A DNA stretch of 59,559 nucleotides from a virus, in IMG/VR virus record IMGVR_UViG_3300008259_003317, positions 1 through 59,559 of that record; one strand, 5' to 3'. The translations under genes and the position numbers were made by a program. Within the stretch, counting starts at the first letter, position 1; every line of letters begins with the position of its first letter. The notes under the pieces were generated by a model. It was given only the letters and a program-made list of their open reading frames with translations. It was not told the DNA's origin and ran no database searches. Positions 9,756 through 49,877 of this stretch are shown here, piece by piece.

Positions 9756-10892
9756 ATGTCGCTACGCATTAGAAGAGGTACAGATGCCCAACGCACCGGG
9801 AAAACGTTCGATCCAGGAGAAATAGTTTGGACAACAGATAATCAACAACTTTGGGTTGGTACTGGAGTCACTGCTGGTGGAGTTCCTGTAGTAGGTTCAA
9901 ACGTTGCTGGTTACGGTATAGTATATAATAATATAACTAAAAAGTTAGATGTGTCAGGATTAACATCGGATGATGTAGTCCAAGGCGTCAACAACAAATA
10001 CTTTAGTACAGAACTAGCTGTTGATGCTGTTGGTGCAGCACTTGTGGCAGGCAATGCAACAAACGTAGGTATTACATTTACCTACGCAACAACACAAGAT
10101 GACGCTGGACGTATTAATGCTACTGTTGATGCGAGTGCGTTTATCGACACTGGTTTGTTAACTGTTCAAGCAGATACAACTCCTGAACTAGGTGGTAATT
10201 TAGATTTAAATTCAAAGGATATTAACGGAACAGGAAATATTAATATAACTGGATCAGTAACAGCTGACTCAGGAACTATTGACGATTTTGATGCAACAAC
10301 AGCTAATATTGGAACAATCAACACATCTGTTAGCCTATTAACAGACAATATTTTACCTTATGATGATGTTAATAATATTGTTAGATTTGGATCTAATACT
10401 GTTGCAACTACTGTTATGATAAGAGGTGACGGACAACAAACCACTATAGACTTAAGAGCTAATACTTCTAATGGAACAGGTCCTCAACCAATTATTAAAT
10501 TTGGAGCAATAAGAGGAACTCAATTAACACCAAGCGTAGTTCAAGACAATGATATATTAGGATCAATTATATTTTCAGGTTACACAGGTCAATCAAATCA
10601 AGACGGATTTGGTACTGGATTTGTTATGGGTGTCCGTGTTACAGATACAGGTGTATTGACAAACGAAGAAACATTTGACGGCACACTTATTGCGGGCACA
10701 GTTGCAGATGTTGTTGGAGGAACGTTTGTTAATATAGCGCCAGGCGGTATTTTATCAGCTCCTATATTCAAAGCAAAAGGATATGCAACAGGTAGCTTGC
10801 CTTCAAGCCCTGCTGAAGGTTACATAGTGTTTGACAGTACAACTAAAGAATTTAAAGGTTGGAATGGTACTGCTTGGGCAGTACTAGGCTAA
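9756..10892 (+). CDS. tail fibre / receptor-binding-like protein
   Basis: 378 aa, SD CGGAGATAGCACG. The N-terminus (IRRGTDAQR...GEIVWTTD..LWVGTG) is the common phage fibre or tropism-determinant start domain. The middle has Asp/Asn/Thr/Gly-rich repetitive beta strands typical of trimeric shafts. The section near residues 250-350 ends in a GGILSAPIF-type motif shared with the gene at 36649. The C-terminus (KGWNGTAWAVLG) is a typical fibre tip. It has a late promoter and a convergent 9-bp overlap with the sulfotransferase gene that begins the island. Confidence 0.8.
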   Translation: MSLRIRRGTDAQRTGKTFDPGEIVWTTDNQQLWVGTGVTAGGVPVVGSNVAGYGIVYNNITKKLDVSGLTSDDVVQGVNNKYFSTELAVDAVGAALVAGNATNVGITFTYATTQDDAGRINATVDASAFIDTGLLTVQADTTPELGGNLDLNSKDINGTGNINITGSVTADSGTIDDFDATTANIGTINTSVSLLTDNILPYDDVNNIVRFGSNTVATTVMIRGDGQQTTIDLRANTSNGTGPQPIIKFGAIRGTQLTPSVVQDNDILGSIIFSGYTGQSNQDGFGTGFVMGVRVTDTGVLTNEETFDGTLIAGTVADVVGGTFVNIAPGGILSAPIFKAKGYATGSLPSSPAEGYIVFDSTTKEFKGWNGTAWAVLG

Positions 10893-11492
10893 ACTATACT
10901 TAAAATAGTCAATGTCTCTTTGATGTACATTGGCAATTAATTTAATACTTTGATCACTAAAGTACTTTTTAAATTCCCAATGGTCATACCCACTTATATC
11001 AGGTAAAGGAATATCGCAATTTAGATATTCCTTTATTTTTTTGAAGTCTTGTTCTAAGTCTTCTGCTCGACATATATAATCAACCCATTCATCATTTACG
11101 TGAATAAAATCAATTTGATTTGTAAAACGATTAAACCATCGAGGAAACTCAAACGGAATATCTGGGTTACAGTAATCAGCTACCCATTCATTAATAGGCT
11201 TAAGGTCCAACAAAGTCATGTTATTCCAATCTAGCCAATATCCTTCCTTACTTACTTTTCGATATAAACTATACACACGTTGCCAAGGATTACGCACAAC
11301 GGTCATAGTTTTAGCAGAAGGATAATGATCCTTGACCGTTCCTAAATGCGGATGATCAATCATCCAAGGATCTGTATCATTTACTTCAAAGTTAACTTTA
11401 AGCCAATCTGAAATAATTTTCTTCATAGCCATTCCTGTACGAGGCACGTGAATGTATGCTAGTTCAGGTCGTTGTATATAAAAGGTACCCAT
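10884..11492 (-). CDS. sulfotransferase-family protein
   Basis: 202 aa. The N-terminal PAPS-binding loop IHVPRTGMAMKK lies at about residues 14-25 and the 3'-phosphate motif TVVRNPWQRVYS at about 64-75, the two hallmarks of the Sulfotransfer_2 family. It would transfer sulfate from PAPS to a sugar, lipid or protein hydroxyl; the acceptor is unknown. It is last in a three-gene minus-strand operon (12873 to 10884), coupled by TAATG to the desaturase. It ends with TAG and overlaps the fibre gene end-to-end. Confidence 0.8.
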   Translation of the reverse strand: MGTFYIQRPELAYIHVPRTGMAMKKIISDWLKVNFEVNDTDPWMIDHPHLGTVKDHYPSAKTMTVVRNPWQRVYSLYRKVSKEGYWLDWNNMTLLDLKPINEWVADYCNPDIPFEFPRWFNRFTNQIDFIHVNDEWVDYICRAEDLEQDFKKIKEYLNCDIPLPDISGYDHWEFKKYFSDQSIKLIANVHQRDIDYFKYSLA

Positions 11493-12262
11493 TAGTCAAT
11501 TTTAATTAGTTTAATGATCCATCCCATTGGGTCTAGCTCCCACCACTTTTTTCCTGCGTACCATGCACCAGGATTACCATGGTGATTATTATGCCAACCT
11601 TCTCCTAATGCAATAACGGCTGCAATCCAACTGTTAGTACTATAGTCTTTAGTTTCATAATTTCTATACCCGTGTCTATGACCCAATACATTAACTAAGC
11701 CAATTACGTGTACTGTTAAGGTTGCAGGCAACGCATATAAAAATACCCACAACATAGGATCAATTAAAATTAAAATAGCAGATGTAATAAAAATAACTTT
11801 AAAATAATTATTAAAAATCCATTTATGCAATGGCTTACGAATTAGATCTTTTACATAAGCCATCGAAATAGCTTCAACGTGCCAATCATAACCAACCCAT
11901 ACCTTAAATGCAGCCCAGTAAGAAAATTTTCCATCAACATAGGACGAGTGCGGATCTCCGGAACCATCAGACTTGGCATGGTGCATCCTATGTAATCCTA
12001 CCCAAGCAATGCTAGGACCAATAGTAGAATAGATACTGATAAAACTTAGTACATTTTCAAGCCACGGCCATGTTTTAAAACTACGATGAGTTAACATTCT
12101 GTGTAATGTAATAATTGCGCTAATATGTCCTATAACAAACCAAGATGCTAGCGCAACAAAGAACCAAGAGTATTGCCCTAAAGAGATTGCGTACCAGACA
12201 CCAATAATGCTGGCAATAAAATTAACTAACTGTATTAATCTTACTTTAAGATTATAACTCAT
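11492..12262 (-). CDS. fatty acid (acyl-CoA delta-9 type) desaturase
   Basis: 256 aa from ATG 12262, chosen because AGAGGAAGGAAC sits just before it and the ATG overlaps the upstream TGA. The longer frame lacks this. The three histidine boxes of membrane di-iron desaturases are intact: HRMLTH (54-59), HRMHH (91-95) and HNNHH (223-227). Hydrophobic segments near 15-50 and 155-190 are membrane spans. The enzyme would add a double bond to fatty acyl chains, so the phage may alter host membrane or an acyl product of the island. Confidence 0.9.
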   Translation of the reverse strand: MSYNLKVRLIQLVNFIASIIGVWYAISLGQYSWFFVALASWFVIGHISAIITLHRMLTHRSFKTWPWLENVLSFISIYSTIGPSIAWVGLHRMHHAKSDGSGDPHSSYVDGKFSYWAAFKVWVGYDWHVEAISMAYVKDLIRKPLHKWIFNNYFKVIFITSAILILIDPMLWVFLYALPATLTVHVIGLVNVLGHRHGYRNYETKDYSTNSWIAAVIALGEGWHNNHHGNPGAWYAGKKWWELDPMGWIIKLIKID

Positions 12263-12873
12263 GTTCCTTCCTCTAGTTGTGACCATTCCTGGTCAGTTAT
12301 TGTATTTGGATTCCATTTCTGAAAACTTCCTGGTGTTGTTTCTAAGTACACAAAGTTTTGCCAACATTTTTGTACGGGCCACGGACAAGTTTGTAAGTAC
12401 CCATAACCTAATGTCCATTTACCTTTGCTGGCGATGTCCATATGTTTAACCCATGTGTCCCACCAACGCTTTCCACCTCTGTTACGATTTTGCATTGTAA
12501 TAAGATACAAATCGTAATTGTTTATAGAAATTAATTTGTCTATTAAACTACACGTTACACGAAATCCGTCTGTCATATCCGTATGCTTCATTCGAAAGTC
12601 TGGAAATGTGTATAACCTATTAATCATTTTAGCCACGTTCTTTGGATAACGCCCATCATTAAATACGCCGCCCATTACCATAGGTTTACCAGTGCTAGTT
12701 TGGTAAACTACTCCGTACCCTGTATGTTGCTCAACTACTAAATTTTCTTTGGTATAATTATAACGCAACCAATTATCTTCTTCCAAGCATAGTTCTCGTA
12801 CCTTTTCAAATTCTAAATTTGATTGGTAGTAAACAATTATATGTGTATCAGTTAAATCATATCTGTTTTGCAT
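12259..12873 (-). CDS. hypothetical protein, possible acyltransferase-like fold
   Basis: 204 aa, unrecognised. The alternation of strands and helices with VMGGVF (about residue 65) and a basic Gly-Arg-rich segment (RNRGGKR near 135) faintly recalls GNAT acetyltransferases, but no diagnostic acetyl-CoA loop is seen. It is first gene of the operon with desaturase and sulfotransferase, and faces the plus-strand 2OG operon across a short shared promoter region. Confidence 0.5.
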   Translation of the reverse strand: MQNRYDLTDTHIIVYYQSNLEFEKVRELCLEEDNWLRYNYTKENLVVEQHTGYGVVYQTSTGKPMVMGGVFNDGRYPKNVAKMINRLYTFPDFRMKHTDMTDGFRVTCSLIDKLISINNYDLYLITMQNRNRGGKRWWDTWVKHMDIASKGKWTLGYGYLQTCPWPVQKCWQNFVYLETTPGSFQKWNPNTITDQEWSQLEEGT

Positions 12874-12912: not shown

Positions 12913-13545
12913 ATGCTAGATGCTGCGATTACAAAACTTAATTTTACTATAAAACTAGATAGTTTAAAAGAGTATTATCATACATTGACAACCAAATACG
13001 ATCACTTGTGTTGGAAGTGGGATAGGTACGGTCACGAAATTACAGAAGAGTGGTACAATCGTATTATATCAAATGGTCCAGGTTGTATACTTCCTTACGG
13101 TTGGGCAATACAAAGTAATTTAGTAGACTTGACTATACCATGCCCTCCATACAACATAAGCACACATGAAAGAACATATTATCGAAACACTGAACTAGCA
13201 TTTGGTTTAGTTACTAAATTACAAGAACTTATTCCTTATGCCTATCGATGGAGTCTAGTTGTTCAGCCGCCAACTGGTAAAGTAAGTAGACACGTTGACC
13301 AAGGCGATGAATACACAGCCCATATACCAATATATGATTCTCCAGGTGCCACATTTAAATTTTGGGATACTTTAGGCAATCGTAAAGATTTTGGGATACC
13401 AGCAGATGGCAGTGTTTATCTTGTTGATACTATAATAGAACACGAAACTGAAAATTTTAGTAACAGTGATAGAGTAGGGTTAGTGTTTAGATTTAAAAGG
13501 TCTGATTTACCAACATTAATGCAACTTACTGGTGAAATATCATGA
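12913..13545 (+). CDS. 2-oxoglutarate/Fe(II) dioxygenase, Asp/Asn-hydroxylase-like
   Basis: 210 aa. The facial triad reads H127-x-D129 (RHVDQG) and H177 (IIEHET), with an Arg about ten residues later (DRVGLVF) to hold 2-oxoglutarate. The setting of strands resembles the aspartyl/asparaginyl beta-hydroxylase family. It would hydroxylate a protein or small molecule using O2. First gene of a plus-strand operon running to 17960, coupled by ATGA to the next 2OG gene. Confidence 0.8.
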   Translation: MLDAAITKLNFTIKLDSLKEYYHTLTTKYDHLCWKWDRYGHEITEEWYNRIISNGPGCILPYGWAIQSNLVDLTIPCPPYNISTHERTYYRNTELAFGLVTKLQELIPYAYRWSLVVQPPTGKVSRHVDQGDEYTAHIPIYDSPGATFKFWDTLGNRKDFGIPADGSVYLVDTIIEHETENFSNSDRVGLVFRFKRSDLPTLMQLTGEIS

Positions 13546-14180
13546 CTATAATATATACTCCAATCGATATAGAATTTGACATGCCAGACGAGCAAGAACT
13601 TATTGACTGGTTTCATTCTCATAAAATTACAGACACAGATTATTGGGAGTATGCAGAAGGTCGACACGAATGGTGTTATGTAGCCTTGAGAGAACAACCA
13701 AGTGATTGGCGAACATATGATGCATGGTTAAAATGGTCAAAGGAACGCGAGCCAATAGAAAATGCTGGACTTTTCTTTCATCCAGGATTTGAGGGAAAAT
13801 TTCCAGGTTTAGCAAAGTGTATAAGAGAATTACCATTTGATCAAATAGGAACCAGCGGCTTTATTATGCAGATAGGAACTATACCTCCTCACCAGGATGC
13901 AGACTATAATATGACAGAGCCAAGACGATATATTATCTATATCACTGACCCAGCTTACAATACTTTTCATTTTGTACATAACGGTAAAAAGATATGGCCA
14001 AAAATTGATAACAAGTATCGATGTTTTGCTTTTAACAACAGTAATATTCAACATGCGGCAGATCCAACTGATAGGACTAAAATACTTTTAAGTACAGTAG
14101 GTATAATGAACAAACAAAAACACGAAGCTTTATTGGAACGCAGCTTGAAAAAATTTGCAGATAAAGTTATTATAATATAA
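13542..14180 (+). CDS. 2-oxoglutarate/Fe(II) dioxygenase-like protein
   Basis: 212 aa. H117-x-D119 (PPHQDAD), H171 (IQHAAD) and R178 form the expected metal and co-substrate set. It is clearly a paralogue of the gene at 47658: both start with a PIDIE...DEQ segment and share a FxGxFPG-like region, PKRY/PRRY, and a C-terminal HEALLERSLKK-type helix. Two copies at opposite ends of the island suggest an internal duplication. Confidence 0.75.
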   Translation: MTIIYTPIDIEFDMPDEQELIDWFHSHKITDTDYWEYAEGRHEWCYVALREQPSDWRTYDAWLKWSKEREPIENAGLFFHPGFEGKFPGLAKCIRELPFDQIGTSGFIMQIGTIPPHQDADYNMTEPRRYIIYITDPAYNTFHFVHNGKKIWPKIDNKYRCFAFNNSNIQHAADPTDRTKILLSTVGIMNKQKHEALLERSLKKFADKVIII

Positions 14181-14854
14181 TGTATTTTAAAAGATTAAAG
14201 GCACAATTTAAACATACTGTAGGTATGTTTGATCGTCAATACAAAGAAACAAAATCTGTTTTTAAAGATTATAATAACAGTATATGGTTTTTAGGTTGTA
14301 GTCATGTGTTTGGTACAGGATTAGAACATTATGAAACAGCACCTTATCAACTATCTAGTTTATCAAACAAGAAAGTTATAAATTTAGGCCATCCAGGTTC
14401 TGGTCCTATGATGGTTGAACAAACACTAACTAAGTTACTTAAAAAATATGAACCTTTAGCTATTGTTATAGCCTGGCCAAATTTTGATAGATGGCAAAGT
14501 TATGAAATAAACTTTCCTGGTGCTGTACTATGGATGCCGTTTTGTCTTGAAGATTCACAAAGCCATAATAACCATTTTGGATCTAAAAAACTTTGGCCAG
14601 AAAGTTATGAGAAATATAAAACTATGCTGTTAAATAACACTATTAAAGATGTAAATTTAAAATCATATTACAATGTTAAACAGATAACTAAAAATAAAAA
14701 AACTATAGAATTCCAATATATGCCGGATGAGCATATATCACTTAATTTGCCGTGTTATCCGTTTATAGATTATGCAAGGGACGATCAGCATCCAGGCAAA
14801 TTAACACAAAAAATAATAGCTGAGTACATTTGGAACAAACTAAATGAAATATAA
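14180..14854 (+). CDS. SGNH/GDSL-like hydrolase or acyltransferase
   Basis: 224 aa. Block I-like WFLGCSHVFG (about residues 31-40) supplies the nucleophile Ser. A Gly/Asn region follows (LGHPGSGP near 70), and a late Asp..His pair (DDQHPGK near 202) completes an SGNH layout. Enzymes of this type hydrolyse or transfer acyl groups on glycans or lipids. Four such genes occur in the island. Coupled by TAATG to the upstream 2OG gene. Confidence 0.65.
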   Translation: MYFKRLKAQFKHTVGMFDRQYKETKSVFKDYNNSIWFLGCSHVFGTGLEHYETAPYQLSSLSNKKVINLGHPGSGPMMVEQTLTKLLKKYEPLAIVIAWPNFDRWQSYEINFPGAVLWMPFCLEDSQSHNNHFGSKKLWPESYEKYKTMLLNNTIKDVNLKSYYNVKQITKNKKTIEFQYMPDEHISLNLPCYPFIDYARDDQHPGKLTQKIIAEYIWNKLNEI

Positions 14855-15533
14855 TTATTACTATAACGATGTGCCAGGTGTAGGGCTATGTAGAAATAAT
14901 TTAATTTATACTAGCCTTATTAGCGAAGACAAAAAAACGTTTGTACAATGGTACTATAATGATACAGAGTATCATAAAGGACACAACGAAATAGTTGACT
15001 CAAACTTGATGGCTGAAAAATTTCAAAGAGAATTACATTTTTTAAGTAACATGGCTTACCATAATCCATCAATGGTACCTGAAATTTTAGAAGTAAACAT
15101 TCCTGAAAGGAAAATATATTTAAGAATAGACGGTAGTGATTTTTGGAACAGAGCCGGTTGTGATACATCAAACTATGATAATATAGTCCCAGACTGGCAA
15201 GAGCAGATGTTAAAAATTATACAGGCTCATAAAGAAAGAGGTTGGTACAAATACAGTATGCATCCTAGCAGTTATTTTGTAGTAGACGGCCAATTAAAAA
15301 GTATAAATTACTTTTTCACTTATAGCAGTAACGAAGGCCCAATCAGCATTGCAGATCATGCTAGTCATATATACAGCACTAGACAGGATATAATGCGTGA
15401 ACAGATTGAACAAATGGGTATTAGTTGGGAAGGTAAAGAACCTTTAGATAAATTACAGATGTTATGTTTTGAAAGTTTTCGATCTAACTACAATGATGAT
15501 TTTATAGAAAAAGCTAAGAGGATATATGATTAA
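14844..15533 (+). CDS. kinase-like fold protein (aminoglycoside-phosphotransferase type)
   Basis: 229 aa. The segment from about residue 130 (HKERGWYKYSMHPSSYFVVDG followed by a short strand) mirrors the catalytic loop and metal-binding strand of APH/choline-kinase-like enzymes. The usual catalytic Asp is not in the standard place (MHPSS rather than HGDLH), so it may be a pseudokinase. The N-terminus is beta-rich. It overlaps both neighbours by 8-11 nt. Confidence 0.45.
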   Translation: MKYNYYYNDVPGVGLCRNNLIYTSLISEDKKTFVQWYYNDTEYHKGHNEIVDSNLMAEKFQRELHFLSNMAYHNPSMVPEILEVNIPERKIYLRIDGSDFWNRAGCDTSNYDNIVPDWQEQMLKIIQAHKERGWYKYSMHPSSYFVVDGQLKSINYFFTYSSNEGPISIADHASHIYSTRQDIMREQIEQMGISWEGKEPLDKLQMLCFESFRSNYNDDFIEKAKRIYD

Positions 15534-16329
15534 AGGAATAAATGGTAAATCCTATTTTGATATGGAAACATATATTGATATGGATCAATTTCAAAAATTG
15601 CAACCTGAGATACTAACAGGTTTTGCCCTAGCACGTGAATATGCTAAAGAAGGCACATGGATGAAGCCTGGCTTTTCATTTGAAAACATGAGTTACAAAC
15701 TTAGTTGGAAACCTATCTATCAGTCTATGGATGAGTTCATGGAACTGCCTAAAGACGATCCTTTATATCAAGCTGGCATAAAGTTAATGCCTACAGATTT
15801 TAAAAACTTTCAACAACGTAATAAATTTACTCGTTATCTAAAGATGGCAATGGGTGCATATGATCCATACATTTACTATTACTTGTGGGAAGAAGGTAGC
15901 TGGGATGATAGAACAGCACCACGTAAACTAACTCCAGAAGCTGAATACTTTCCTAATGTAGTTAAATGGGTAGAATCTATGGTAGGAACTATATTCCAAG
16001 AGATTGGCCGTGTTATATTTTTTCACTGTGAAGCAGACGGTATTCCGTTTGAACATCGCGACTTAGATGCTAAGAACGGCATCGATGTTGTTACACCCCA
16101 TCGTAATGAATTTATACATGTTCGTCCTAACACAAAGAAGGCTATGTACCTTTGGGATCCAGAGACCAAAGATAAAACATATCTTAACACTAGAGCTGCT
16201 TGGTGGAACGATGTAGATTGGCACGGCGGCGAACGTATCATGGAACAAAGTTATAGTTTACGTATTGACGGAAAATTTACAGAAGATTTTCGTAAACGCT
16301 TAGGTATAGAACATTTGGAATCTTATTAA
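15526..16329 (+). CDS. 2-oxoglutarate/Fe(II) dioxygenase-like protein
   Basis: 267 aa, larger than its neighbours. H177-x-D179 (EHRDLD) and H233 (DWHGGER) form the metal triad, with an Arg in YSLRIDG further on. A long N-terminal helical part (residues 1-150) is of unknown function. The DWHGG motif resembles the WHG[AG] block of the other 2OG proteins in the island. TAATG coupling to the radical-SAM gene that follows. Confidence 0.7.
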   Translation: MIKGINGKSYFDMETYIDMDQFQKLQPEILTGFALAREYAKEGTWMKPGFSFENMSYKLSWKPIYQSMDEFMELPKDDPLYQAGIKLMPTDFKNFQQRNKFTRYLKMAMGAYDPYIYYYLWEEGSWDDRTAPRKLTPEAEYFPNVVKWVESMVGTIFQEIGRVIFFHCEADGIPFEHRDLDAKNGIDVVTPHRNEFIHVRPNTKKAMYLWDPETKDKTYLNTRAAWWNDVDWHGGERIMEQSYSLRIDGKFTEDFRKRLGIEHLESY

Positions 16330-17960
16330 TGTACGATGTAATACTATTTGGAGATATGCCAGATCTTGAAACTTATTCAAGAGCAAGCGGCTCTCATCGT
16401 ATAGCAACTGAATTGAGAGAGCATGGGTACTCTGTTTTAGTTGTTGATTTTGCAAACTATATTAATTTTAAAAGATATAGTGAAATAATTGAACTATCAG
16501 TGGGAGAAAACACTCTAGCTGTTGGTTTTTCAACTACATGGTTTCCTTTTATTTTGCCAGACGGAACTGTTAGTCATAGAGAACCAAGCAAACCAGCCAT
16601 GCGATTTAATCCAAACACAGAAAATTCATTAAACAGTTTAAGTATGGAATTTGGAGGGCCCAATGTCCAATTTTATACTGATAAAATTAAATCTGTAAAT
16701 CCAAGAACAAAAATTATTTTAGGCGGCGCGAAAGCCTTTATGTACATTAATACATTAGGCGTTGATAATGTGTTTATAGGACATGCAGAAACTATGATTG
16801 TAGAATATCTACAAAGTCTTAAAAAAGGTCCAAGAAGATTGTGGAACAGAATTATTGATCACGATAAAAAAGCACAGTCACCCTCTTGGGATTTTAGAAG
16901 ATCTAACATTTCCTATGAGCCAGAATCTTTTATATTGCCTAGCGAAACACTTTTATTAGAAGTAGGAAGAGGTTGTAGATTTAATTGTAAGTTTTGTTCA
17001 TTCCCGCTTATAGGTCAAAAAAATGTTAAAGACTATATTAAATTTGAAGAGTGTCTTTATAACGAACTTTTAGACAATTGGAATCGTTGGGGAACATGGA
17101 AATACACTATAGTAGACGATACATTTAATGATAGTACAGAAAAACTAGAAATGGTCAAACGTGTAGTAGCAAGACTTCCTTTTAAACCTGCGTTTTGGTG
17201 TTATATGAGATTAGACATAATAGTTAATAATCCAGAACATATACAACTTGCCAAAGATATAGGAATTAGAGAAGTTTACTTTGGTATAGAAACATTAAAT
17301 CGAGAAGCTGGCAAAGTTATAGGTAAAGGCATGGATCCTAAACGTATTACAGATACTTTAGAAAAATGTGCTGAGGTATGGGGACACGATGTTTGGATAA
17401 TGACCGGATTAATATGCGGCCTTCCTAAAGACAATATTGCAGATTTTGAAAAAAGCTGTGCCTACTTTGACAGGCCAGATCGCCCAGTAGGTCACATAAA
17501 CACAACTCCGTTACGTATAATAAAACATACAGATTTTACAAAATATAGATTTAATGCTGCTTTTGAAATTGAAGCTGAAAAGTATGGATATGAATTTCCT
17601 TATCCAGATGTTCCTTGGCGATGGATTAAAAAGGACGGGACTGATATAGATACGTTTGAAAAAGCAACTGAAATAGCCGTGAAGTGGCAACAAAAATTAG
17701 ATAGCCATATTCAGTTTTATAGAAACTTTTTTTATATTAGTTGTATTAATTTACCAAAATATGATTTTAATACTCTAATGTCTTTTACTAAAAAAGAAGA
17801 TTTATATCAACATTTTGGAAGCGATAATATTAAAGAATTAATGAAACAACAAATAGAGGAAACTTATTTTATTCCTCTATTAGAATTTTTAAGGCAAAAA
17901 GCCTGTGAAAGTAATGAGGTGTTTAGATTTAGTTCCCACATTGAAACCAGCATGCCATGA
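16329..17960 (+). CDS. radical SAM enzyme with B12-binding-like N-terminal domain
   Basis: 543 aa. The N-terminal Rossmann-like domain (residues 1-170; IILGGAKAF near 130) matches the B12-binding fold, but no DxHxxG cobalamin His motif is seen. The radical SAM cluster motif is GCRFNCKFCSF (about residues 217-225). Later GIETLNREAG and CGLP motifs are typical of this class. Family members do methylations, ring contractions or C-C bond formation. Paralogous in plan to 38928, 40263 and 44588. Its last 72 bp overlap the convergent 2OG gene. Confidence 0.85.
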   Translation: MYDVILFGDMPDLETYSRASGSHRIATELREHGYSVLVVDFANYINFKRYSEIIELSVGENTLAVGFSTTWFPFILPDGTVSHREPSKPAMRFNPNTENSLNSLSMEFGGPNVQFYTDKIKSVNPRTKIILGGAKAFMYINTLGVDNVFIGHAETMIVEYLQSLKKGPRRLWNRIIDHDKKAQSPSWDFRRSNISYEPESFILPSETLLLEVGRGCRFNCKFCSFPLIGQKNVKDYIKFEECLYNELLDNWNRWGTWKYTIVDDTFNDSTEKLEMVKRVVARLPFKPAFWCYMRLDIIVNNPEHIQLAKDIGIREVYFGIETLNREAGKVIGKGMDPKRITDTLEKCAEVWGHDVWIMTGLICGLPKDNIADFEKSCAYFDRPDRPVGHINTTPLRIIKHTDFTKYRFNAAFEIEAEKYGYEFPYPDVPWRWIKKDGTDIDTFEKATEIAVKWQQKLDSHIQFYRNFFYISCINLPKYDFNTLMSFTKKEDLYQHFGSDNIKELMKQQIEETYFIPLLEFLRQKACESNEVFRFSSHIETSMP

Positions 17961-18443: not shown

Positions 18444-18457
18444 AATATATCCTAAAT

Positions 18458-19668: not shown

Positions 19669-19672
19669 GAAA

Positions 19673-19680
19673 TATTTATA
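19673..19680 (-). promoter_or_regulatory. TATAAATA late-type element (minus strand)
   Basis: Exact consensus match in the 39-nt divergent gap. Its closeness to the ATG at 19668 would make the message nearly leaderless, which lowers confidence. Confidence 0.45.
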
Positions 19681-19707
19681 TGCTACTATTATAAGGTTAA
19701 ATATTTC

Positions 19708-36516: not shown

Positions 36517-36695
36517 ATCATTATAAAAATGATGTTCCAATAATTTCTCTAGAAACTAATTTATATGTTTTTGCTGAAGCACAGTCTAGCGGTTCTGAAA
36601 AACATTATGATTATACTACATGGGTCTGGAATGATAAAGTTATAAAAATTAAAGAGGTTGGAATTCATCCTGAATTAGAGGATGGACAGCAATAG
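36483..36695 (+). CDS. small hypothetical protein (70 aa)
   Basis: ATG at 36483 after GCGAGGAATAA, overlapping the previous gene by 34 nt in another frame. Mixed alpha/beta with no recognised motif. Last gene of the plus operon; its end overlaps the convergent fibre-like gene by 47 bp. Confidence 0.5.
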   Translation: MSKFAECKSIINHYKNDVPIISLETNLYVFAEAQSSGSEKHYDYTTWVWNDKVIKIKEVGIHPELEDGQQ

Positions 36696-42325: not shown

Positions 42326-43389
42326 TTTACACCAACTGGGATCCTTTAGAAAAAATTATAGTAGGCAATTGCTACACACAAGTACCCGAGTCTTGGCAAA
42401 TAACAGGCGATGCAAGAGAACTTTTAAATCAAATTTTACGAGAAACTAAAGAAGATTTAGATAATCTTGCAAATACCCTAACAAAGTTAGGTGTAACAGT
42501 ATACCGTCCTGTTGTTTATAATTTACCTGCATTAGTCGAATTTCCAACATTTAAAGTTTTAATGGCAACTAACCCTGTTGTTCCTCGAGATCAATATTTT
42601 GCCTATGGGAATACTTTATATCAAACTTACACAAGTATGCCAGACAGATATATAGATAGTTTACATTATTATGAAATATTTGCTGATCTATTTAAACAAG
42701 GATATAATTGGCTCAGTCAACCTCCGCCGGTATTGACTAACTTTACAGACAAATATAAATGGTATGTGGAAGGCCCTACGATTTATAGTAATTTGTACAA
42801 AGATAAAATTCTGTGGCATACCGCAACTATGTTTAAATGTGGAGATGCATTGATTACTAATAATGCTGGACCTGGTACGCAACTAGGTTTAGAATGGATG
42901 AAAAGAAACTGTGATGCAACTATAATTAACAACGATAATACTAAAGTAGATAACTGGGGTCATATTGACCATGGGTTTTATATGATAGATGATAATACTG
43001 TTATTTGCATGAATGAAACTTGGGTCCCTGAGGTATTGCGTAACAAAAATATTATAGAGCTTGACGGTATGTTTGAACCATTTAATTATCAAAACTTCAT
43101 TCAAAAAACTCATAGCATAAAGGATCAAAGTTCACTTGAGTGGTTAGAACAGTGGTTTCTCGAATGGAAGGGTTATGCACAAGATGTAGCTTTTGAAACA
43201 AATGTTCTTGTGGTAGATTCTAATAATATAATTTTTTCAACAGAACAACCTAAAGTTTTTGAACTACTAGCAAGACATAATGTTAATTGCCATGTTGTCA
43301 AGCAACGACACGGAATGTTTTGGGAAGCTGGGATACATTGCCTTACGCTAGATGTTTCTAGGAAAGGGAACAGGCGTTCTGTAATCTAG
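42322..43389 (+). CDS. amidinotransferase / arginine deiminase superfamily enzyme
   Basis: 355 aa. The start WDPLEKIIVGN is the family's entry strand. PRDQYFAYGN (D near residue 90), GHIDHGF (His near 214) and GIHCLTLD with the catalytic Cys near 340 give the full amidinotransferase triad. Such enzymes move an amidino group from Arg to an amine, making guanidino products, or hydrolyse guanidines. With the neighbouring aminotransferase it points to amine or guanidine chemistry in the island's product. Ends TAG; 32-bp convergent overlap. Confidence 0.85.
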   Translation: MIYTNWDPLEKIIVGNCYTQVPESWQITGDARELLNQILRETKEDLDNLANTLTKLGVTVYRPVVYNLPALVEFPTFKVLMATNPVVPRDQYFAYGNTLYQTYTSMPDRYIDSLHYYEIFADLFKQGYNWLSQPPPVLTNFTDKYKWYVEGPTIYSNLYKDKILWHTATMFKCGDALITNNAGPGTQLGLEWMKRNCDATIINNDNTKVDNWGHIDHGFYMIDDNTVICMNETWVPEVLRNKNIIELDGMFEPFNYQNFIQKTHSIKDQSSLEWLEQWFLEWKGYAQDVAFETNVLVVDSNNIIFSTEQPKVFELLARHNVNCHVVKQRHGMFWEAGIHCLTLDVSRKGNRRSVI

Positions 43390-44527
43390 TTTGCAATTTA
43401 TTAAAATATTCAGAGGATGCATTTAACGGAACAATCAGTAATATTGATGTATCACTTTTACTATTCCATACTCCAACATTAATACCATTATTATAAAAAA
43501 CTTCTTCTGCCGTAGGTTTAATTGTTAATTTAAAAACTAAACCATAATTTTTATAACTTAACACAGATCCATTACTAACTAAATTATCCATTACAAATTT
43601 TGCTCTAGCAAGAGTGCTTTCAAAATTTTCATAATGGTTTTCTTTTTCTAAAATTTCTAAGTATTTTAAGGTACAATATACACCGCTTAGAGAAAAAGAA
43701 TATGTAAATCCGTGAGCTAAAAATTTATCCTTAACAGACTGATAAATTTTATCATTTACAAGGCAGGCACTTAAAGGAAAATATCCTCCTGAAAACGATT
43801 TACCTAAACAAAAAATATCTGGATTAGCATATGGATTAAACCCAAAGAATTTTCCTGTCTTGCCGCCGCACATGGCAATATCATCTATAATTAAAACTAC
43901 ATTATTTTCTGTACATAAAGCTCTAAGTTCTTTCCAAAATTCATCAGACAACGTATCTAAACCGTTATTCCAAGAGCATGATTCTATAACTATACAATTT
44001 GCATCACTTATTTCTTTTCTTATAAGTTCTATATCAAAAGAAGGAAGTACACAACAATTTATGTGTTTACCCCAATGCTGAGTCATCTCAGGAATAGAGC
44101 CTATACTTGAAACTAAAAAAGTACTTCCATGATAAGAACTTTGGAAGCCTATGATTTTTTGCCTGTCTGGGTTGTACATTGTTGCTAATTTAATAGCACT
44201 TTCAACAGCATCACTTCCAGATAAGGTAAACAACGATTTGTAGCCATTGCTCAGATCAAATAGCTTTTCAGATAAATTTAAGACAGCTTCATTGGTAGTC
44301 ATATACTCCCCGCTTACAAACGGGTTTTTAAGCATCTGTTCACTGACGTAATCTATTATGTCTTTTCTATTAAATCCTAGCATAAAACAGCCAGCATTTC
44401 CAAGACTTAGATCTAAAATATCTTTTCCGCTATCTGTGTAACTAAACTGACTGTAAGATTCAATCACACGGGTTTTTGACCAATTTGAATTTACAACGAA
44501 TGGATATAATAATTTAGGATGTTTCAT
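43358..44527 (-). CDS. class III PLP aminotransferase
   Basis: 389 aa from ATG 44527 (the longer frame begins inside the divergent promoter). The PLP sites are complete: SGSDAVESAIK (103-113), SYHGST (131-136), IIDD (Asp 215/216) and the Schiff-base Lys243 in LGKSFSGG. Related to glutamate-1-semialdehyde and diamine or aminosugar aminotransferases. It would make or use an amine on a small molecule or sugar. Divergent from the 44588 radical-SAM gene. Confidence 0.85.
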   Translation of the reverse strand: MKHPKLLYPFVVNSNWSKTRVIESYSQFSYTDSGKDILDLSLGNAGCFMLGFNRKDIIDYVSEQMLKNPFVSGEYMTTNEAVLNLSEKLFDLSNGYKSLFTLSGSDAVESAIKLATMYNPDRQKIIGFQSSYHGSTFLVSSIGSIPEMTQHWGKHINCCVLPSFDIELIRKEISDANCIVIESCSWNNGLDTLSDEFWKELRALCTENNVVLIIDDIAMCGGKTGKFFGFNPYANPDIFCLGKSFSGGYFPLSACLVNDKIYQSVKDKFLAHGFTYSFSLSGVYCTLKYLEILEKENHYENFESTLARAKFVMDNLVSNGSVLSYKNYGLVFKLTIKPTAEEVFYNNGINVGVWNSKSDTSILLIVPLNASSEYFNKLQTRLQNACSLS

Positions 44528-44541
44528 ATTTTCTTTGCGAT

Positions 44542-44559
44542 TATTTAACCCGATAAATA
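44542..44559. promoter_or_regulatory. divergent late-type elements
   Basis: GATAAATA on plus (44552-44559, 28 nt before the radical-SAM start) and TTAAATA on minus (44542-44548, 15 nt before the aminotransferase start). The plus element is the stronger. Confidence 0.5.
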
Positions 44560-44587
44560 TCAAGTCTTAAAAGAACTGAAATTATAT

Positions 44588-46495
44588 ATGAAATCTGTCT
44601 ACTTGATTCAGCCCGAAATTACCTCAGGTGTTCTCAACGAACACTATTTGCCTTTTAGTGTGGGCTGTATATGGGCATACGCAAATCAATTTGAATATGT
44701 AAAAAACAATTTTACTTTAAAAGATGTTGTTTGGAAACGAGAGCGTCAGGTAGATGTACTAAACAGAATAGATAACCCTGATATTGTTGGATTTAGCACT
44801 TATGTTTGGAACCATAATTGGAATATATCTCTTGCAAAAAAAATTAAAAAAAGATGGCCTAATTGTTTAATTGTTTTTGGTGGGCCTAGCATTAATGAAA
44901 CATGGTTAAAACATGATTTTATTGATGTTGCTATGTTTGGTGAAGGCGAAGAAGCATGGGCTAAATTGTTAAAGATGGTTGTAGATAATGAGCCTATACA
45001 TCGTTATTGGAACAACCCGCGTCAAACAAATATTTCCGATTATCCTAGTCCGTACACAACTGGATTCTTTGATAAAATTATTGCTGACAACCCAGATGTA
45101 ATGTGGTTCATGATGTTAGAGACAAATAGAGGTTGTCCTTATCATTGTACTTTTTGTGGTTGGGGCGCAGATTATCTAAACAAATTAAAAGTTTTTAATT
45201 TAGATAGAGTAGCACATGAAATTGAATGGGCCATAACACATAACATTCATTGGATTTTTGTTATCGATGCTAATAGCGGAATTTTAAAAGAACGAGACGT
45301 AGAAATAGCGTGGATGATTAGACATGCAGTTGAAACACCAGGAAGCAAAATACGTCGTGTTACATTTAATCATGCAAAAAATTTAAATGAACATTGCTTT
45401 GAAATGGAAAAAATTATTCAAGAGTGGACTTACGGACTTGAAATAGCTATTCAAAGTCTACACGAGCCTACGCTGGAAGCCAGCAAAAGAATTAACATGG
45501 GCTTAAACAATCTTGAAAGAGTTTATGAACTAAGCAGAAAATACGGCATTCGATACTACACTGAATTAGTCCTTGGCTTACCTTTAGAAACAAAAGAAAC
45601 TTATATAAACGGTCTAATGAAACTTACTGAATTAGGTCAACACGATTCAATAAAAACATATCTATGTACAGTTATTCCCAATAGCGAAATGGACAGTGAA
45701 GAATATCGAAGCAAATACGGTATTAAACTAATTTATCCTAGAGATATGTACAGAAGTTTAGAAGAAAGAAAATGGGACGATGAAGATAACAGTCATGAAG
45801 ATATAGCCATGGTATGTGAAACTGATTCTGCTTCAAGACAAGATTTAGCTGACTGTTTAAGTTATGCGTGGATGATGAGTCAATTTCATTACAGCGGTTA
45901 TACTCAATTAATATCTAGATATCTATATCATATGAAGGGTGTGTCTTACAGAACATTCTATGATAAATTGTATCATGCATTAAAAACAGATCCTGTAGGA
46001 AGACACTTGTTAGAAAATGTTGAAGAAATTCTAATAAATTATCTAACACACGGTGAGATACCTAGTAATGAAAAATGGGGGAACGTAATTGCATTGACTT
46101 TATCAGAAAGTTATGGTGGCAATGAAATTTACGACAACGCAGATTATTTTATATCTTTAGGTATCAATATAGGAAGAGAAATATCTGCCTTAGATCCTAG
46201 CATTGAAGAGCTGCAAAAAGCATTTATTAAAAACAACAAAAACAAATACCCGTACAGCATAGTATCTAGTGTTGACATTGATAGATGGGAAAACGCCCAC
46301 GTTGTTTACGAAATCAAAGATAGAATTTCCGTTAGTCATCAACAGGATCAGATGTATGAAAAATGGTTAAGAAAAACTGATATTATTAACATTACTAATC
46401 CCTATGTTGAAAAGTTTATTAAAGGAACTTACAAACGAACTGTAATTCCTATCATTTCAACTCCAACTACAGTGATGGATGGAAGACCTTTATGA
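44588..46495 (+). CDS. radical SAM enzyme with B12-binding-like domain (long form)
   Basis: 635 aa. The B12-binding-like N-terminus (IVFGGPSI near residue 97, GEGEEAW near 119) is followed by GCPYHCTFCGW (about 184-192) and LVLGLPLETKETY (near 330). A long C-terminal region (450-635) has no recognised domain and no precedent among the other island members. Heads an operon with a Tes-like radical-SAM gene and a 2OG gene. Confidence 0.85.
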   Translation: MKSVYLIQPEITSGVLNEHYLPFSVGCIWAYANQFEYVKNNFTLKDVVWKRERQVDVLNRIDNPDIVGFSTYVWNHNWNISLAKKIKKRWPNCLIVFGGPSINETWLKHDFIDVAMFGEGEEAWAKLLKMVVDNEPIHRYWNNPRQTNISDYPSPYTTGFFDKIIADNPDVMWFMMLETNRGCPYHCTFCGWGADYLNKLKVFNLDRVAHEIEWAITHNIHWIFVIDANSGILKERDVEIAWMIRHAVETPGSKIRRVTFNHAKNLNEHCFEMEKIIQEWTYGLEIAIQSLHEPTLEASKRINMGLNNLERVYELSRKYGIRYYTELVLGLPLETKETYINGLMKLTELGQHDSIKTYLCTVIPNSEMDSEEYRSKYGIKLIYPRDMYRSLEERKWDDEDNSHEDIAMVCETDSASRQDLADCLSYAWMMSQFHYSGYTQLISRYLYHMKGVSYRTFYDKLYHALKTDPVGRHLLENVEEILINYLTHGEIPSNEKWGNVIALTLSESYGGNEIYDNADYFISLGINIGREISALDPSIEELQKAFIKNNKNKYPYSIVSSVDIDRWENAHVVYEIKDRISVSHQQDQMYEKWLRKTDIINITNPYVEKFIKGTYKRTVIPIISTPTTVMDGRPL

Positions 46496-47658
46496 TTATA
46501 GGATTTAATCAATCTAACATTGAAAGGTTACAAGAATCCATCAAAGGAACTTTGTTAGATCAAACAGTAAGTCTTTGTCATCAGTGCCATAGGCACATTC
46601 CTGCGTGGCGATATCATAAAGACAATCAAGTGTTTATTGCTAAAGCGTGTCCTATACACGGTGTTAGTCATCACATGATTGAAGCTGATTATGAGTTTTA
46701 CGCTAACCTGTATTATACTCAGGATAATCCTCAGTTTAATTTTAATGGCGGAGTACTTATTGAAGGCAGTGATCGTTGTAATTTAGAATGCCCACATTGT
46801 TATCATTTACCAGAAAACGATACCCGCGATCCTTCTATAGAAGAATTGCTTGATCAAATACGAGCCATGCCGGTGGGTGAGGATGGAGTACATAGAATTA
46901 TCCTCGCTGGTGCTGAAAGTACCTTACGCAAAGACTTTCCAGAATTGGTAACAGCAATACGTGGGCTACACCCTGCAATAGATGTTAGTGTAATGACTAA
47001 CGGAATACGTTTTAATGATATTGAATTCTCTCACAAGTGTGTTGAAGCGGGACTTGCAGGTGTTAATATTGGTCTTAATCATCCAAGTTACATTGATCAC
47101 GAAACAGTAAGACGTAAGCAAGTTAGTGCTATTGAGAACATGCACAGAGAAGATGTTAAGATAGGTTACATTAGTTATACTATGGTGGACTTTAGTGAAC
47201 TTGATTACATCTTAACCGAGATTACTAGTAACCCATGGACTCCTAAAAACTTCCGCATCCGTAATGGTGCAGAGATAGGTCGTAATGCTAGTACTGAACA
47301 ACCATTTGTTAGTAACTTATACAAACGTGCAGAGCAATGGTGTAAGGACAACGGCAAACATTTTGAACGCATCATCGAAGCAGACAATAACATTTATCAT
47401 GTAATGGTTAAGATTGAAGATAAGATTGTACGTTTGATTAGTTGGTGTGACGAAACTAACATTGATATGGAAGAGTTACGTAGTGGACCTTGGTGTAACT
47501 TTGTGCCTGACGGTATTACAAACTTTCTACATCAAATTATTAGAAGAGATATTTGGAAAAATCAGAAACTTGTATTGCCAGACAGTCCACCTAATAGATA
47601 TTTGTTTAATAGAAACCCTGTTAAAACAAAACTAGATTTACTTAATATAGACCTATAA
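46492..47658 (+). CDS. radical SAM protein with N-terminal CxxC/CPxHG domain
   Basis: 388 aa. The N-terminal zinc-ribbon-like part LCHQCHRHIPA...KACPIHG (residues 23-55) is the hallmark of the MJ0619/tetraether-lipid-synthase-like radical SAM group. The core motif is RCNLECPHCYH (about 94-101), with LAGAEST replacing GGEPT. C-terminal cysteines (SWCD, GPWCN) may hold another cluster. Members act on lipids or pterins. A lipid substrate would fit the desaturase, but this is inference. Confidence 0.75.
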   Translation: MIIGFNQSNIERLQESIKGTLLDQTVSLCHQCHRHIPAWRYHKDNQVFIAKACPIHGVSHHMIEADYEFYANLYYTQDNPQFNFNGGVLIEGSDRCNLECPHCYHLPENDTRDPSIEELLDQIRAMPVGEDGVHRIILAGAESTLRKDFPELVTAIRGLHPAIDVSVMTNGIRFNDIEFSHKCVEAGLAGVNIGLNHPSYIDHETVRRKQVSAIENMHREDVKIGYISYTMVDFSELDYILTEITSNPWTPKNFRIRNGAEIGRNASTEQPFVSNLYKRAEQWCKDNGKHFERIIEADNNIYHVMVKIEDKIVRLISWCDETNIDMEELRSGPWCNFVPDGITNFLHQIIRRDIWKNQKLVLPDSPPNRYLFNRNPVKTKLDLLNIDL

Positions 47659-48344
47659 TGGGAATAGCTTTTTTACCTATAGATATAGAAACAGCATTGC
47701 CTGATGAACAAAAGATTATTGACTACTGTAATCGCCAGAGTTTTTTAGACAAAAGCATTTCTAATTGCTGGGATACTGTTCCAGTTTATGCGCGACTTAA
47801 TGAAGATCAATTACACGATATTCCTACACTGCTAGAATTAATACGGACAAAAACTGTTTATACTGGCATAAAAGGCAAATATTTAAATAATTTTGATAAA
47901 GAATTTCCAGAAATCGCAGCAATTATAGATCAATTGCCTTTTAAAGAACTAGCATACGCAGTACTTTTTAGGCAAACCTCTGAAGTTAATCCGCATATGG
48001 ACCGAGGAAAAGAAGAACTTTACGATTCTACTTTAGTAGAAAATGACGATACAAAAGCATTGTATCTAGAGCCAAAACGTTATAATATTTTACTTACCAA
48101 GCACGACTATAAAAGTTTTTATGTTTGCAATACTCAAGATAGTAATCCAATATATCCTGAAATTCCAAAACATAGAGCCTGTTTTGCTTTTTCAAATGAC
48201 GAACATTATCACGGTGCAAATTTTGTTGGTCAGGATAAAATCATGTTATTCATGTCTGGATCTTTAGATAAATTAAAACATCAAGAATTAATTAAAAAAA
48301 GTATGCAGAAATACTCTAAAGAAGTTATAGCGTTTTACCAATAA
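47658..48344 (+). CDS. 2OG dioxygenase-like protein, paralogue of the 13542 gene
   Basis: 228 aa. Starts FLPIDIETALPDEQ like 13542. NPHMDRG gives HxD (near residue 115), and HYHGANF the distal His. The C-terminal helix (HQELIKKSMQK) is also shared. TAATG coupled. 20-bp convergent overlap with the methyltransferase gene. Confidence 0.75.
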   Translation: MGIAFLPIDIETALPDEQKIIDYCNRQSFLDKSISNCWDTVPVYARLNEDQLHDIPTLLELIRTKTVYTGIKGKYLNNFDKEFPEIAAIIDQLPFKELAYAVLFRQTSEVNPHMDRGKEELYDSTLVENDDTKALYLEPKRYNILLTKHDYKSFYVCNTQDSNPIYPEIPKHRACFAFSNDEHYHGANFVGQDKIMLFMSGSLDKLKHQELIKKSMQKYSKEVIAFYQ

Positions 48345-48918
48345 CCATAAATCTTTTATACAACGGAAGCTCTAACTCTCCAGCCCATAGCACTTTAATG
48401 TGACACTGCTGTTTAAATTCTTCCAAGTCTTTGGCAATCCGAACATGTTCTGGGATATTGTAATTATTACTTTGTAAAACTAGTAAACTATTATGAGGAT
48501 GCCCGCTTAACCACAAGTCATATTGATCCTGTGTAATATGTTCGCAACTAGTATTGATGATAACATCTGCATCGCTACGAACTGTACACATGTCTGCTGT
48601 TACAGCTCGAAACTTTCCAACCATCTCTTCTATTTTGTTCATGTTAGTGGCAATTGGTTCACAAGTAGGATCAATATCAATACTTCGGATATTAGATACA
48701 GGAACATCGCTTTGGAATAACATACTGGCCAATACTCCAACCCAACCTCCGTGTATGTCTATTGACACAAATTTTTTTACATGTGGTCGTAAATTTTTAA
48801 TTAACCACTCTTTGCTTTTAAGTTGACCTGACCAAAATGCATCCATAGTCCGTATAGGGTCTGAACTTTGTCGGATAGCCTGCATCCAATGATGTAGATG
48901 TTCTGTATCTATTTGCAT
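48325..48918 (-). CDS. SAM-dependent methyltransferase-like protein
   Basis: 197 aa. VSIDIHGGWVGVLA (about residues 51-64) is a motif-I variant, RSIDIDPTCEPIA the acidic strand, and VIINTSCEHI (about 115) motif IV. Similar small methyltransferase-like proteins are widespread in marine T4-like phages. Follows the radical-SAM gene with a 10-nt overlap. Confidence 0.65.
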   Translation of the reverse strand: MQIDTEHLHHWMQAIRQSSDPIRTMDAFWSGQLKSKEWLIKNLRPHVKKFVSIDIHGGWVGVLASMLFQSDVPVSNIRSIDIDPTCEPIATNMNKIEEMVGKFRAVTADMCTVRSDADVIINTSCEHITQDQYDLWLSGHPHNSLLVLQSNNYNIPEHVRIAKDLEEFKQQCHIKVLWAGELELPLYKRFMVIGKTL

Positions 48919-49877
48919 TTTGGTATCTTACTATCTGCTGAACTTACACATGTGGGAGTAATACAGCGTTTAGGTTCCTTAAATAATTCAAAGTGTTCAA
49001 GAGTTCCTAGAGGTTCATCATGACAACTATAACTTCTTTTAACTTCGTTGCTTCTTATTATAACACTTTGATAACCGCTATTGCAAGTCCAATCTTTAAA
49101 TTTATTAAATCCAAAAGCATTAAATCTTTCAGCCTGATCAAAGTAATAATCTTTAACCCCATCGTTGAGACGAATCTGATAAACGTCTTCTCCTTGTGAT
49201 TTTTGTGGAAACCCTTCTTGCATTAGTTTAATCATATCATCAGTGTAGCCATCAACTACACGACTAGCAGTAAGATCACTTTGTGGTTTAAGAGTTACAT
49301 TGATTCCACGTTTATGAAATCTTGCCATACGCTCATATAATTCATAAAACTTTTCAGGAACCATAACTTGATTAACAGTAACATGTACTAGTTCATATTG
49401 TAATTGTAAACACTTGTCACCGAACTCTTGTTCTCCTGCAAATTCATCATGGAAGCTGGCTGTAATACTTCTTCGTTGTAACAAAGCAGTTGCATCACAC
49501 CAACTTTTCCACCATTTACTTCCTGGCGACAAATTAGTAGTCATATGCACACTTTGGTAACTGCTTTCTTTTTCGTCTAGGTGTTTGATTAAATCCAAAA
49601 GATGTTTATAGGCAGTTGGTTCGCCACCACTAAAACTCCAATGGAATTGGTTAAACCCATTGGCCCGTGCTTGTCTTTTAATCTCGTCTACTGTGGATTT
49701 GTAAACTTCAAGTGGTTGGTGATCCAATTTGTCGCTACGGGCATATGGCCAACAGTAGCTACAATTATAATTACAAAATCGTCCAAGAATCCAACTTACA
49801 GAAAACAACGGACGATCTAACATGGTACGTTGTCCAAAACTTACAATTTGTTCGAATGGTATTTGGTTAAAGTTCAT
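48909..49877 (-). CDS. radical SAM enzyme
   Basis: 322 aa. RFCNYNCSYCWP (about residues 33-41) and FSGGEPT (near 81) define the core. The C-terminus carries CNS, SCH and CITPTCVSS cysteines. Paralogue of 22331 and 24019. It is the outermost gene of the island; the tRNA-like gene and the right-hand phage region begin 77 nt away. Confidence 0.85.
   Translation of the reverse strand: MNFNQIPFEQIVSFGQRTMLDRPLFSVSWILGRFCNYNCSYCWPYARSDKLDHQPLEVYKSTVDEIKRQARANGFNQFHWSFSGGEPTAYKHLLDLIKHLDEKESSYQSVHMTTNLSPGSKWWKSWCDATALLQRRSITASFHDEFAGEQEFGDKCLQLQYELVHVTVNQVMVPEKFYELYERMARFHKRGINVTLKPQSDLTASRVVDGYTDDMIKLMQEGFPQKSQGEDVYQIRLNDGVKDYYFDQAERFNAFGFNKFKDWTCNSGYQSVIIRSNEVKRSYSCHDEPLGTLEHFELFKEPKRCITPTCVSSADSKIPKCK

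Follow-up and report, generated by a model that had tools for sequence, protein, structure and literature searches.

A 39-kb island of enzyme genes from an uncultured T4-like phage

The stretch of DNA that we analyzed in full, here called the window, comprises 59,559 bases from an uncultured T4-like phage and corresponds to the IMG/VR virus record IMGVR_UViG_3300008259_003317. An earlier sequence-only reading of the window had singled out a 39-kb block of enzyme genes at positions 10884-49877 (the island), and these limits were upheld. The interval holds 48 open reading frames (ORFs) at a coding density of 99.3%, its intergenic gaps are no longer than 74 bp, and its GC content is 0.333, compared to 0.412 in the left flank and 0.386 in the right flank. 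Genes are numbered as in Table 1.

The CxxxCxxC motif of radical S-adenosylmethionine (SAM) enzymes was present in exactly 12 island ORFs. Eleven of these reach or exceed the cut-off of the Pfam model PF04055, and g56, which scores 23.6 bits against a cut-off of 29.5, matches the KedN5 model NF033712 (4e-46). Pfam and NCBIfam models divide the genes into B12-type (g21, g50, g52, and g56), N-twitch (g27, g31, and g33, which match NF033640 at the scores in Table 1 against a curated cut-off of 170 bits), simple (g28, g30, g32, and g60), and Tes/TrsS-like (g57) enzymes, so that motif count and both model collections concur with the 12 genes in four classes described before. The nearest solved relatives of g60, weakly matched, were viperin-like and sulfatase-maturating enzymes; no PDB sequence match was obtained for g31 or g26.

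The second large family, the 2-oxoglutarate (2OG) oxygenases, was harder to delimit. Only g25 and g49 exceed Pfam cut-offs, with weak matches for g16, g40, and g53, and the other calls are based on an HxD...H motif and family membership. The previous tally of 15 such genes plus a remnant is therefore plausible as a count but falls short of proof for each gene. No nonribosomal peptide synthetase (NRPS), polyketide synthase (PKS), or transporter genes were recognized in the island, and it still holds that no known pathway explains the set.

Nine gene families form a conserved core

We searched viral contigs with a profile of the three N-twitch paralogues and kept 79 loci. Relatives of this bait are encoded in at least 571 candidate viral stretches, all 33 contigs tested carried two or more radical-SAM matches (maximum, 22), and gene orders recurred among the loci. 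Across 71 sequence sets, which include the window, the twitch family was found in 70, g32 in 56, g28 and g59 in 52 each, g60 in 44, g30 in 26, g24 in 22, and g26 in 21. Given that this bait itself belonged to the radical-SAM family, we retested co-occurrence with g26, chosen as a non-radical-SAM protein, and obtained 79 viral loci. Within these we counted g32 in 78, g24 in 76, g27 in 75, g31 in 73, g28 in 70, g59 in 68, g60 in 57, and g30 in 46, numbers that are approximate, given near-duplicates among the loci and flanks cut off at 10 kb. The dominant neighbor pairs were 26-27 (53), 27-28 (46), 32-59 (36), and 59-60 (33), and median identity to the window was 60-76% for g26, g27, g28, g31, g59, and g60. 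Other island genes were far less constant (g56 in 5 of the 79 loci, g13 in 9, g54 in 12, g52 in 21), and g45, g47, and g48 occurred in none of them.

Nine genes (g24, g26, g27, g28, g30, g31, g32, g59, and g60) form the core, and the accessories around them change. The core consists of two N-twitch and four other radical SAM enzymes, a QueC-like protein, a methyltransferase-like protein, and a 2OG-like protein. Dozens of distinct viral contigs contain these families together and in a conserved arrangement, a recurrence far beyond chance, and the N-twitch and g26 baits exclude a random scatter of single genes. Co-occurrence in related phages, which the sequence-only reading had named as a check on a joint system, was thus found with both protein baits. 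Where that reading had treated about 43 genes as one system, the nine-gene core bears it out, but the remainder are accessory genes, variably present.

The island occupies a hotspot beside a tail-fiber gene

The island sits in a hotspot between an Mtd-type tail-fiber gene (g12) and a tRNA-like gene. We place the hotspot beside the fiber gene because relative L239 shows the empty site, in which the tRNA-like gene comes immediately after the g12 homologue. In most relatives that reach the other border, the divergent tRNA-like gene lies between g60 and either g61 or a different gene. The fiber-like gene inside the island, g47, has no Pfam match; in L066, one protein is the best relative of both g47 and g12.

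The border RNA has acceptor, D, and T arms and a CCA end. Its seven-base anticodon loop is absent and is replaced by a variable hairpin that shrinks to a tetraloop in L171 and L074. Among 24 homologues, the acceptor and T arms, which covary, were paired in 100% of cells and the D stem in 97%, and 15 of 26 pairs had changes in both partners. In relatives the RNA is ∼96 to 119 nucleotides (nt) long. Neither ARAGORN nor Rfam detected it at 49954-50070 in the window, and the covariance-model score of 102 bits comes from a model that had the window itself among its 24 training rows. A sigma70-type promoter precedes 66 of 82 distinct copies, and the exact 3'-end pattern was found in at least 120 viral stretches. 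By eye, the D-arm is similar to that of tRNA-Leu. Five loci carry the gene without core genes in the stretch examined, and many loci with core genes gave no hit with the covariance model, some of them stopping short of the site. Its candidacy as a core member was weakened on both counts and, given the five core-less loci, we conclude that it goes with the site rather than with the core.

T4-late-type elements had also been noted in several island operons, and this claim was upheld in part. The canonical TATAAATA shows no enrichment in the island, with 4 occurrences compared to 9.35 expected, but across relatives TAAATA lies within the last 20 bp before the start of 42% of 611 divergent first genes, compared to 2.3% of 2,196 internal genes. 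Shine-Dalgarno-like motifs accompany 14% of divergent first genes versus 37% of internal genes. Operons of the cassette start at these T4-late-like boxes, and the frequencies fit T4-type late promoters whose transcripts are likely leaderless or nearly so. At divergent starts in about 150 viral loci, the TAAATA box lies ∼10 to 14 nt ahead of the start codon.

A QueC-like protein and a two-domain GT-A/methyltransferase protein

The AlphaFold model of g26 (predicted local distance difference test [pLDDT] score, 87.7) has QueC (2pg3) as its best solved match. Both QueC signatures, the SGGxDS PP-loop and the C-terminal four-Cys zinc site, are present, as an SGGADSA loop and residues C203, C224, C227, and C230 that are invariant in 15 homologues. 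We call the protein QueC-like, rather than QueC, because its PF06508 score (19.1 bits) falls under the curated cut-off of 22.

The fold and complete zinc signature of g26 raise the question of nucleic-acid hypermodification, in which QueC-like and QueE-like enzymes would provide the phage's DNA or RNA with a modified base. Some radical SAM members do match QueE models weakly, and a QueD-like gene was seen by eye in the extension of a near-identical record, G001. We nonetheless consider this explanation very improbable. The hallmark of phage 7-deazaguanine DNA modification, a tRNA-guanine transglycosylase (TGT)-like DpdA, was found in 0 of 11 large relatives, whose records may be incomplete; the promoters are late-type; and to our knowledge no base-modification pathway has a comparable number of 2OG and twitch enzymes, which here far exceeds those known.

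The AlphaFold 2 model of g34 (pLDDT, 91.3) joins a glycosyltransferase A (GT-A)-like domain (∼9-226) to a class I methyltransferase-fold domain (∼220-381). The nearest structures to the former are LH3, COLGALT1, Mimivirus R699, and the PBCV-1 capsid glycosyltransferase, and the nearest to the latter is EgtD, a methyltransferase fold (Z, ∼10). As in LH3, COLGALT1, and the PBCV-1 enzyme, the GT-A-like domain can be fused to or lie beside a 2OG domain. In L174, g34 is fused to a 2OG domain of the g53 type; in a Bdellovibrionota protein, the g34-type C-terminal domain is linked to a 2OG domain that is matched weakly; and g25 often adjoins g34 (25+ 34+ neighbors in 19 loci). A direct g25-g34 fusion was sought, with no instance found.

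The core is carried by uncultured phages and has a counterpart in Bdellovibrionota

No isolate among 50,697 phage records matched g26, g59, or g60, and twitch matches among those records were remote. The T4 capsid protein Gp23 is encoded by 7 of 14 large relatives. When 84,980 cellular genomes were searched with a g60 profile, we recovered 25 loci, mostly from Bdellovibrionota, which are bacteria of predatory type, and several on contigs of 100 to 900 kb, with 31-, 32-, 59-, and 28-type genes as neighbors. Sixteen of 241 sampled Bdellovibrionota genomes contain g60. N-twitch matches above the cut-off occurred in 41 of 144 Bdellovibrionota genomes versus 3 of 299 Pseudomonadota genomes, with up to 37 in a single Bdellovibrionota genome. 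In a g60 tree, 90 viral rows form one fully supported group, separate from a cellular group that also includes four viral rows. Distribution and tree together appear compatible with Bdellovibrionota hosts, and the wide spread of viral g60 makes it unlikely that the core is confined to one narrow phage lineage. The chromosomal N-twitch arrays (Bdellovibrionota L191-L203; e.g., G039:C1:745-774 kb) have 2OG, QueC-like, amidinotransferase-like, and other island-type genes as neighbors. A link to HTTM carboxylases in these arrays was weak and inconsistent.

Relationship to known radical-SAM clusters

The density of radical SAM genes had been called extreme for a phage, but it is not unique among published genomes. 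The T4-like Campylobacter phages CP220 and CPt10 carry an interchangeable cluster of five radical SAM genes and a glycine amidinotransferase (PMC2853527). Like the island, it brings together clustered radical SAM genes and an amidinotransferase in a T4-like phage, as a module exchanged between relatives; three of its radical SAM genes are g32-type, one is g28-type, and the amidinotransferase is g54-type. It also includes two nucleotide-sugar-transferase-like genes. Unlike the island, it has only 10 to 12 genes, lies near baseplate genes, and has no N-twitch gene, and no match for g26, g59, or g60 was found in it. The host recognition cluster of pelagimyophages, a large variable region of T4-like phages located between VrlC and gp14, likewise has radical-SAM cassettes, tail fibers, and Mtd-type domains (PMC7029224), of which the island was confirmed to share the Mtd-type fiber neighbor. 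It has been described chiefly for its glycosyltransferases, and we found no conserved enzyme core described there. A third case, the T4-like genome TARA_ERS488813_N000010, equals the window in its 12 radical-SAM genes and has an A-type Fe-S carrier, as G001 has an A-type-carrier-like gene; its authors interpreted the set within Fe-S metabolism, and we found neither a gene order nor a core described there (PMC5332604).

Radical-SAM-rich T4-like phages have therefore already been reported. For the conserved core, for its counterpart in Bdellovibrionota, and for the tRNA-like gene, by contrast, we found no description in the one open-access library searched. With relatives in hundreds of uncultured viral contigs and markers unmatched among the 50,697 phage records, the core would represent a common viral chemistry that is without a laboratory representative or known product. 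The division into core and accessory genes reduces 43 odd enzymes to nine genes amenable to expression and testing. Two experimental entry points are the counterpart in Bdellovibrionota and, in Campylobacter phages that can be cultured, the distant cluster; the anticodon-less tRNA-like gene at the border poses a second testable puzzle.

Proposed function

We infer that the island looks like a late-acting chemical decoration pathway. The reading that we favor, tentatively and at somewhat less than even odds, is that virion fibers or other surface-exposed virion proteins are hydroxylated, glycosylated, and tailored by radical chemistry late in infection. Under this proposal, the late substrate of the enzymes would be a macromolecule, most probably fiber or other exposed proteins of the phage's own virion. 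Oxygenases of the Asp/Arg-hydroxylase type would hydroxylate side chains, g34-type proteins would glycosylate and methylate the hydroxyl groups, much as LH3 and COLGALT1 act on collagen, radical SAM enzymes would introduce C-methyl groups or cross-links, and the QueC-like enzyme would use ATP to turn a carboxylate into an amide or nitrile. Accessory genes would alter the pattern, such that the exposed surface differs between relatives while the core chemistry stays constant.

Several observations lead us to this proposal. Co-occurrence and order are conserved and the boxes are late-type; fiber gene g12 adjoins the island, g47 lies inside it, and the empty site of L239 directly follows g12. The fold of g34 resembles collagen-type and viral-capsid glycosyltransferases, and 2OG fusions occur. 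PF05118 comprises protein hydroxylases, and no NRPS, PKS, or transporter was recognized. Finally, baseplate genes are found near the analogous cluster of CP220, which has nucleotide-sugar-transferase-like genes of its own. Other findings weigh against it. The core has no recognized glycosyltransferase, and g34 is present in only 29 of the 79 g26-bait loci; the GT-A matches of g34 (Z, ∼10; identity, 5 to 10%) speak to fold, not function, and no obvious DxD motif was seen in it, in which respects it differs from LH3, COLGALT1, and the PBCV-1 enzyme. No target protein was identified, and late timing is predicted from sequence. The main objection is that the same families form arrays in Bdellovibrionota with no recognized virion genes as neighbors in the parts analyzed, and hence that the chemistry is not tied to virions.

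For this last reason we raised our estimate for decoration of the host envelope, which ranks close behind decoration of virion proteins, although we still regard it as doubtful. In this scenario, a surface glycan or lipid of the infected cell would be remodeled late in order to exclude superinfection or release virions; Bdellovibrionota would apply the same chemistry to their own envelope. The cellular arrays have GT-A-like (by eye), short-chain dehydrogenase/reductase, and UDP-sugar-dehydrogenase-like neighbors; the window itself encodes a sulfotransferase, a desaturase, and SGNH-like proteins; and the glycosyltransferases of the pelagimyophage cluster were tied by their authors to O-chain changes (PMC7029224). 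The core, however, has no recognized glycosyltransferase or sugar-nucleotide gene, late expression would give little time for a surface change, and the contigs richest in glycosyltransferases (e.g., L107) come from oddly assigned marine metagenome-assembled genomes.

The combination of a constant core with variable tailoring genes would also fit a natural-product pathway shared by phages and Bdellovibrionota, yielding a small molecule or ribosomal peptide that might be antibacterial or related to predation. SPASM/twitch radical SAM enzymes are frequently peptide maturases, and the amidinotransferase, aminotransferase, and B12 radical SAM genes are of kinds found in natural-product clusters. 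We judge this unlikely, given that neither an exporter nor an assembly line was recognized, that the promoters are late-type, and that no precursor gene was seen in gaps of at most 74 bp, overlapping small ORFs lying outside the search. 

A broader possibility, which we hold no more firmly than envelope decoration, is that N-twitch and other radical SAM, QueC-like, and 2OG/GT-A enzymes constitute a new tailoring chemistry that builds a densely modified protein or glycan surface, that is diversified in the manner of an antigen locus, and that is shared by phages and Bdellovibrionota.

Features of the island and near-identical records

Table 1. Genes and other features of the island and its borders (2OG, 2-oxoglutarate oxygenase; x/79, g26-bait loci with the gene)
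Feature	Position	Strand	Evidence
g12, tail-fiber-like, Mtd N-terminal domain; left border	9756..10892	+	PF18454 Mtd_N, E 2.7e-6, above cut-off
g13-g15, accessory: sulfotransferase-like, fatty-acid desaturase, third protein	10884..12873	-	g14 PF00487, 1e-18; g13 PF13469, weak
g16-g20, accessory: 2OG-like g16/g17/g20, SGNH-like g18, g19	12913..16329	+	g16 PF05118, weak
g21, B12-type radical SAM, accessory	16329..17960	+	PF04055, 8.6e-17
g22-g23, 2OG-like pair, accessory but frequent	17889..19006	-	Family: 33 genes in 22/71 sequence sets
g24, core 2OG-like	19003..19722	-	76/79
g25, Asp/Arg-hydroxylase-type 2OG	19507..20361	+	PF05118, 3.3e-10
g26, core QueC-like PP-loop ATPase	20354..21076	+	AlphaFold 2 fold; QueC best PDB match
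g27, core N-twitch radical SAM	21012..22331	+	NF033640, 337 bits; 75/79
g28, core radical SAM	22331..23242	+	PF04055, 8e-14; 70/79
g29, SGNH-like, accessory	23175..24032	+	10/79
g30, radical SAM, less constant core member	24019..24990	-	PF04055, 1.3e-13; 46/79
g31, core N-twitch radical SAM	24987..26384	-	NF033640, 396 bits; 73/79
g32, core radical SAM	26381..27442	-	PF04055, 1e-6, at cut-off; 78/79
g33, third N-twitch radical SAM, accessory paralogue	27442..28758	-	NF033640, 278 bits
g34, GT-A-like domain plus class I methyltransferase-fold domain	28833..30044	+	AlphaFold 2 model
g35-g46, accessory: nitroreductase g36; 2OG-like g37, g39-g42, g44; SGNH-like g38, g43	30032..36695	+	PF00881 (g36)
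g47, fiber-like structural protein within island	36649..37644	-	Relationship to g12 relative
g48, methyltransferase; g49, 2OG-FeII_Oxy_5	37641..38869	-	PF13649, 9e-11; PF13759, 1.1e-14
g50-g54, accessory: tandem B12 radical SAM g50/g51, g52; 2OG-like g53; amidinotransferase-like g54	38928..43389	+	
g55, class III aminotransferase	43358..44563	-	PF00202, 3e-44
g56, KedN5-like B12 radical SAM; g57, TrsS/Tes-like radical SAM; g58, 2OG-like	44588..48344	+	NF033712, 4e-46; NF045646, 3e-22
g59, core methyltransferase-like (uncertain)	48325..48918	-	68/79; median identity 76%
g60, core radical SAM; right end of protein island	48909..49877	-	PF04055, 8e-13; 57/79 (10-kb flanks)
Sigma70-type promoter of tRNA-like gene: TTGACT, 17 bp, TATACT	49919..49947	+	
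tRNA-like RNA without anticodon loop; right border	49954..50070	+	Covariance model, 102 bits

Some accessory genes keep their order in relatives. The order of g13-g15 is kept in L125, L129, and L161, and that of the g35-g46 run, of which g35, g45, and g46 are further members, recurs in L066. Among the g26-bait loci, g19, judged by eye to be possibly kinase-like, occurs in 52 of 79 and g20 in 39 of 79. The mechanical ORF start of g25 may lie upstream of the real one. The methyltransferase-like assignment of g59 is uncertain, PDB giving only weak spermidine-synthase-type matches.

A tRNA with a CTA anticodon at 4452-4525 (+) is called tRNA-Pyl by ARAGORN and a good tRNA by Rfam, and it is possibly an amber suppressor. 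The amber recoding at which it hints was set aside, as TAG serves as the stop of 8 of the 78 listed ORFs.

Two overlapping, near-identical records from other metagenomes, G001 (70,871 bp) and G002 (18,021 bp), allowed a direct comparison. The window is shorter than G001 by 120 to 230 bp at four in-gene places (33107, 33789, ∼39876, and 53231), and G002 matches G001 at both deletion places that it spans. In G001 g39-g41 are intact, so the supposed 2OG remnant g41 reflects a short deletion specific to the window. The deletion that splits g50/g51 leaves neighboring g52 intact; g50 is intact in G001 and G002, and the intact form seen in G001 and in L005 is a single protein of 490 amino acids. The deletions behind g41, the g39/g40 junction, and the g50/g51 split measure about 130 to 230 bp. 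Intact copies in relatives rule out old pseudogene decay for g41 and g50/g51, and, because G001 has the intact forms, we regard the split gene and remnant as recent: the g41 remnant, the g39/g40 junction, and the g50/g51 split may each be a microdeletion or an assembly error. Beyond the window, G001 encodes a fiber-like ORF of more than 2,756 amino acids (L084 1-8269, -) that adjoins the A-type Fe-S carrier-like gene (8275-8625, -). Also outside the island, it carries the QueD-like gene (by eye; L084 12012-12494, -) and an additional N-twitch radical SAM gene (L084 15375-16751, -).

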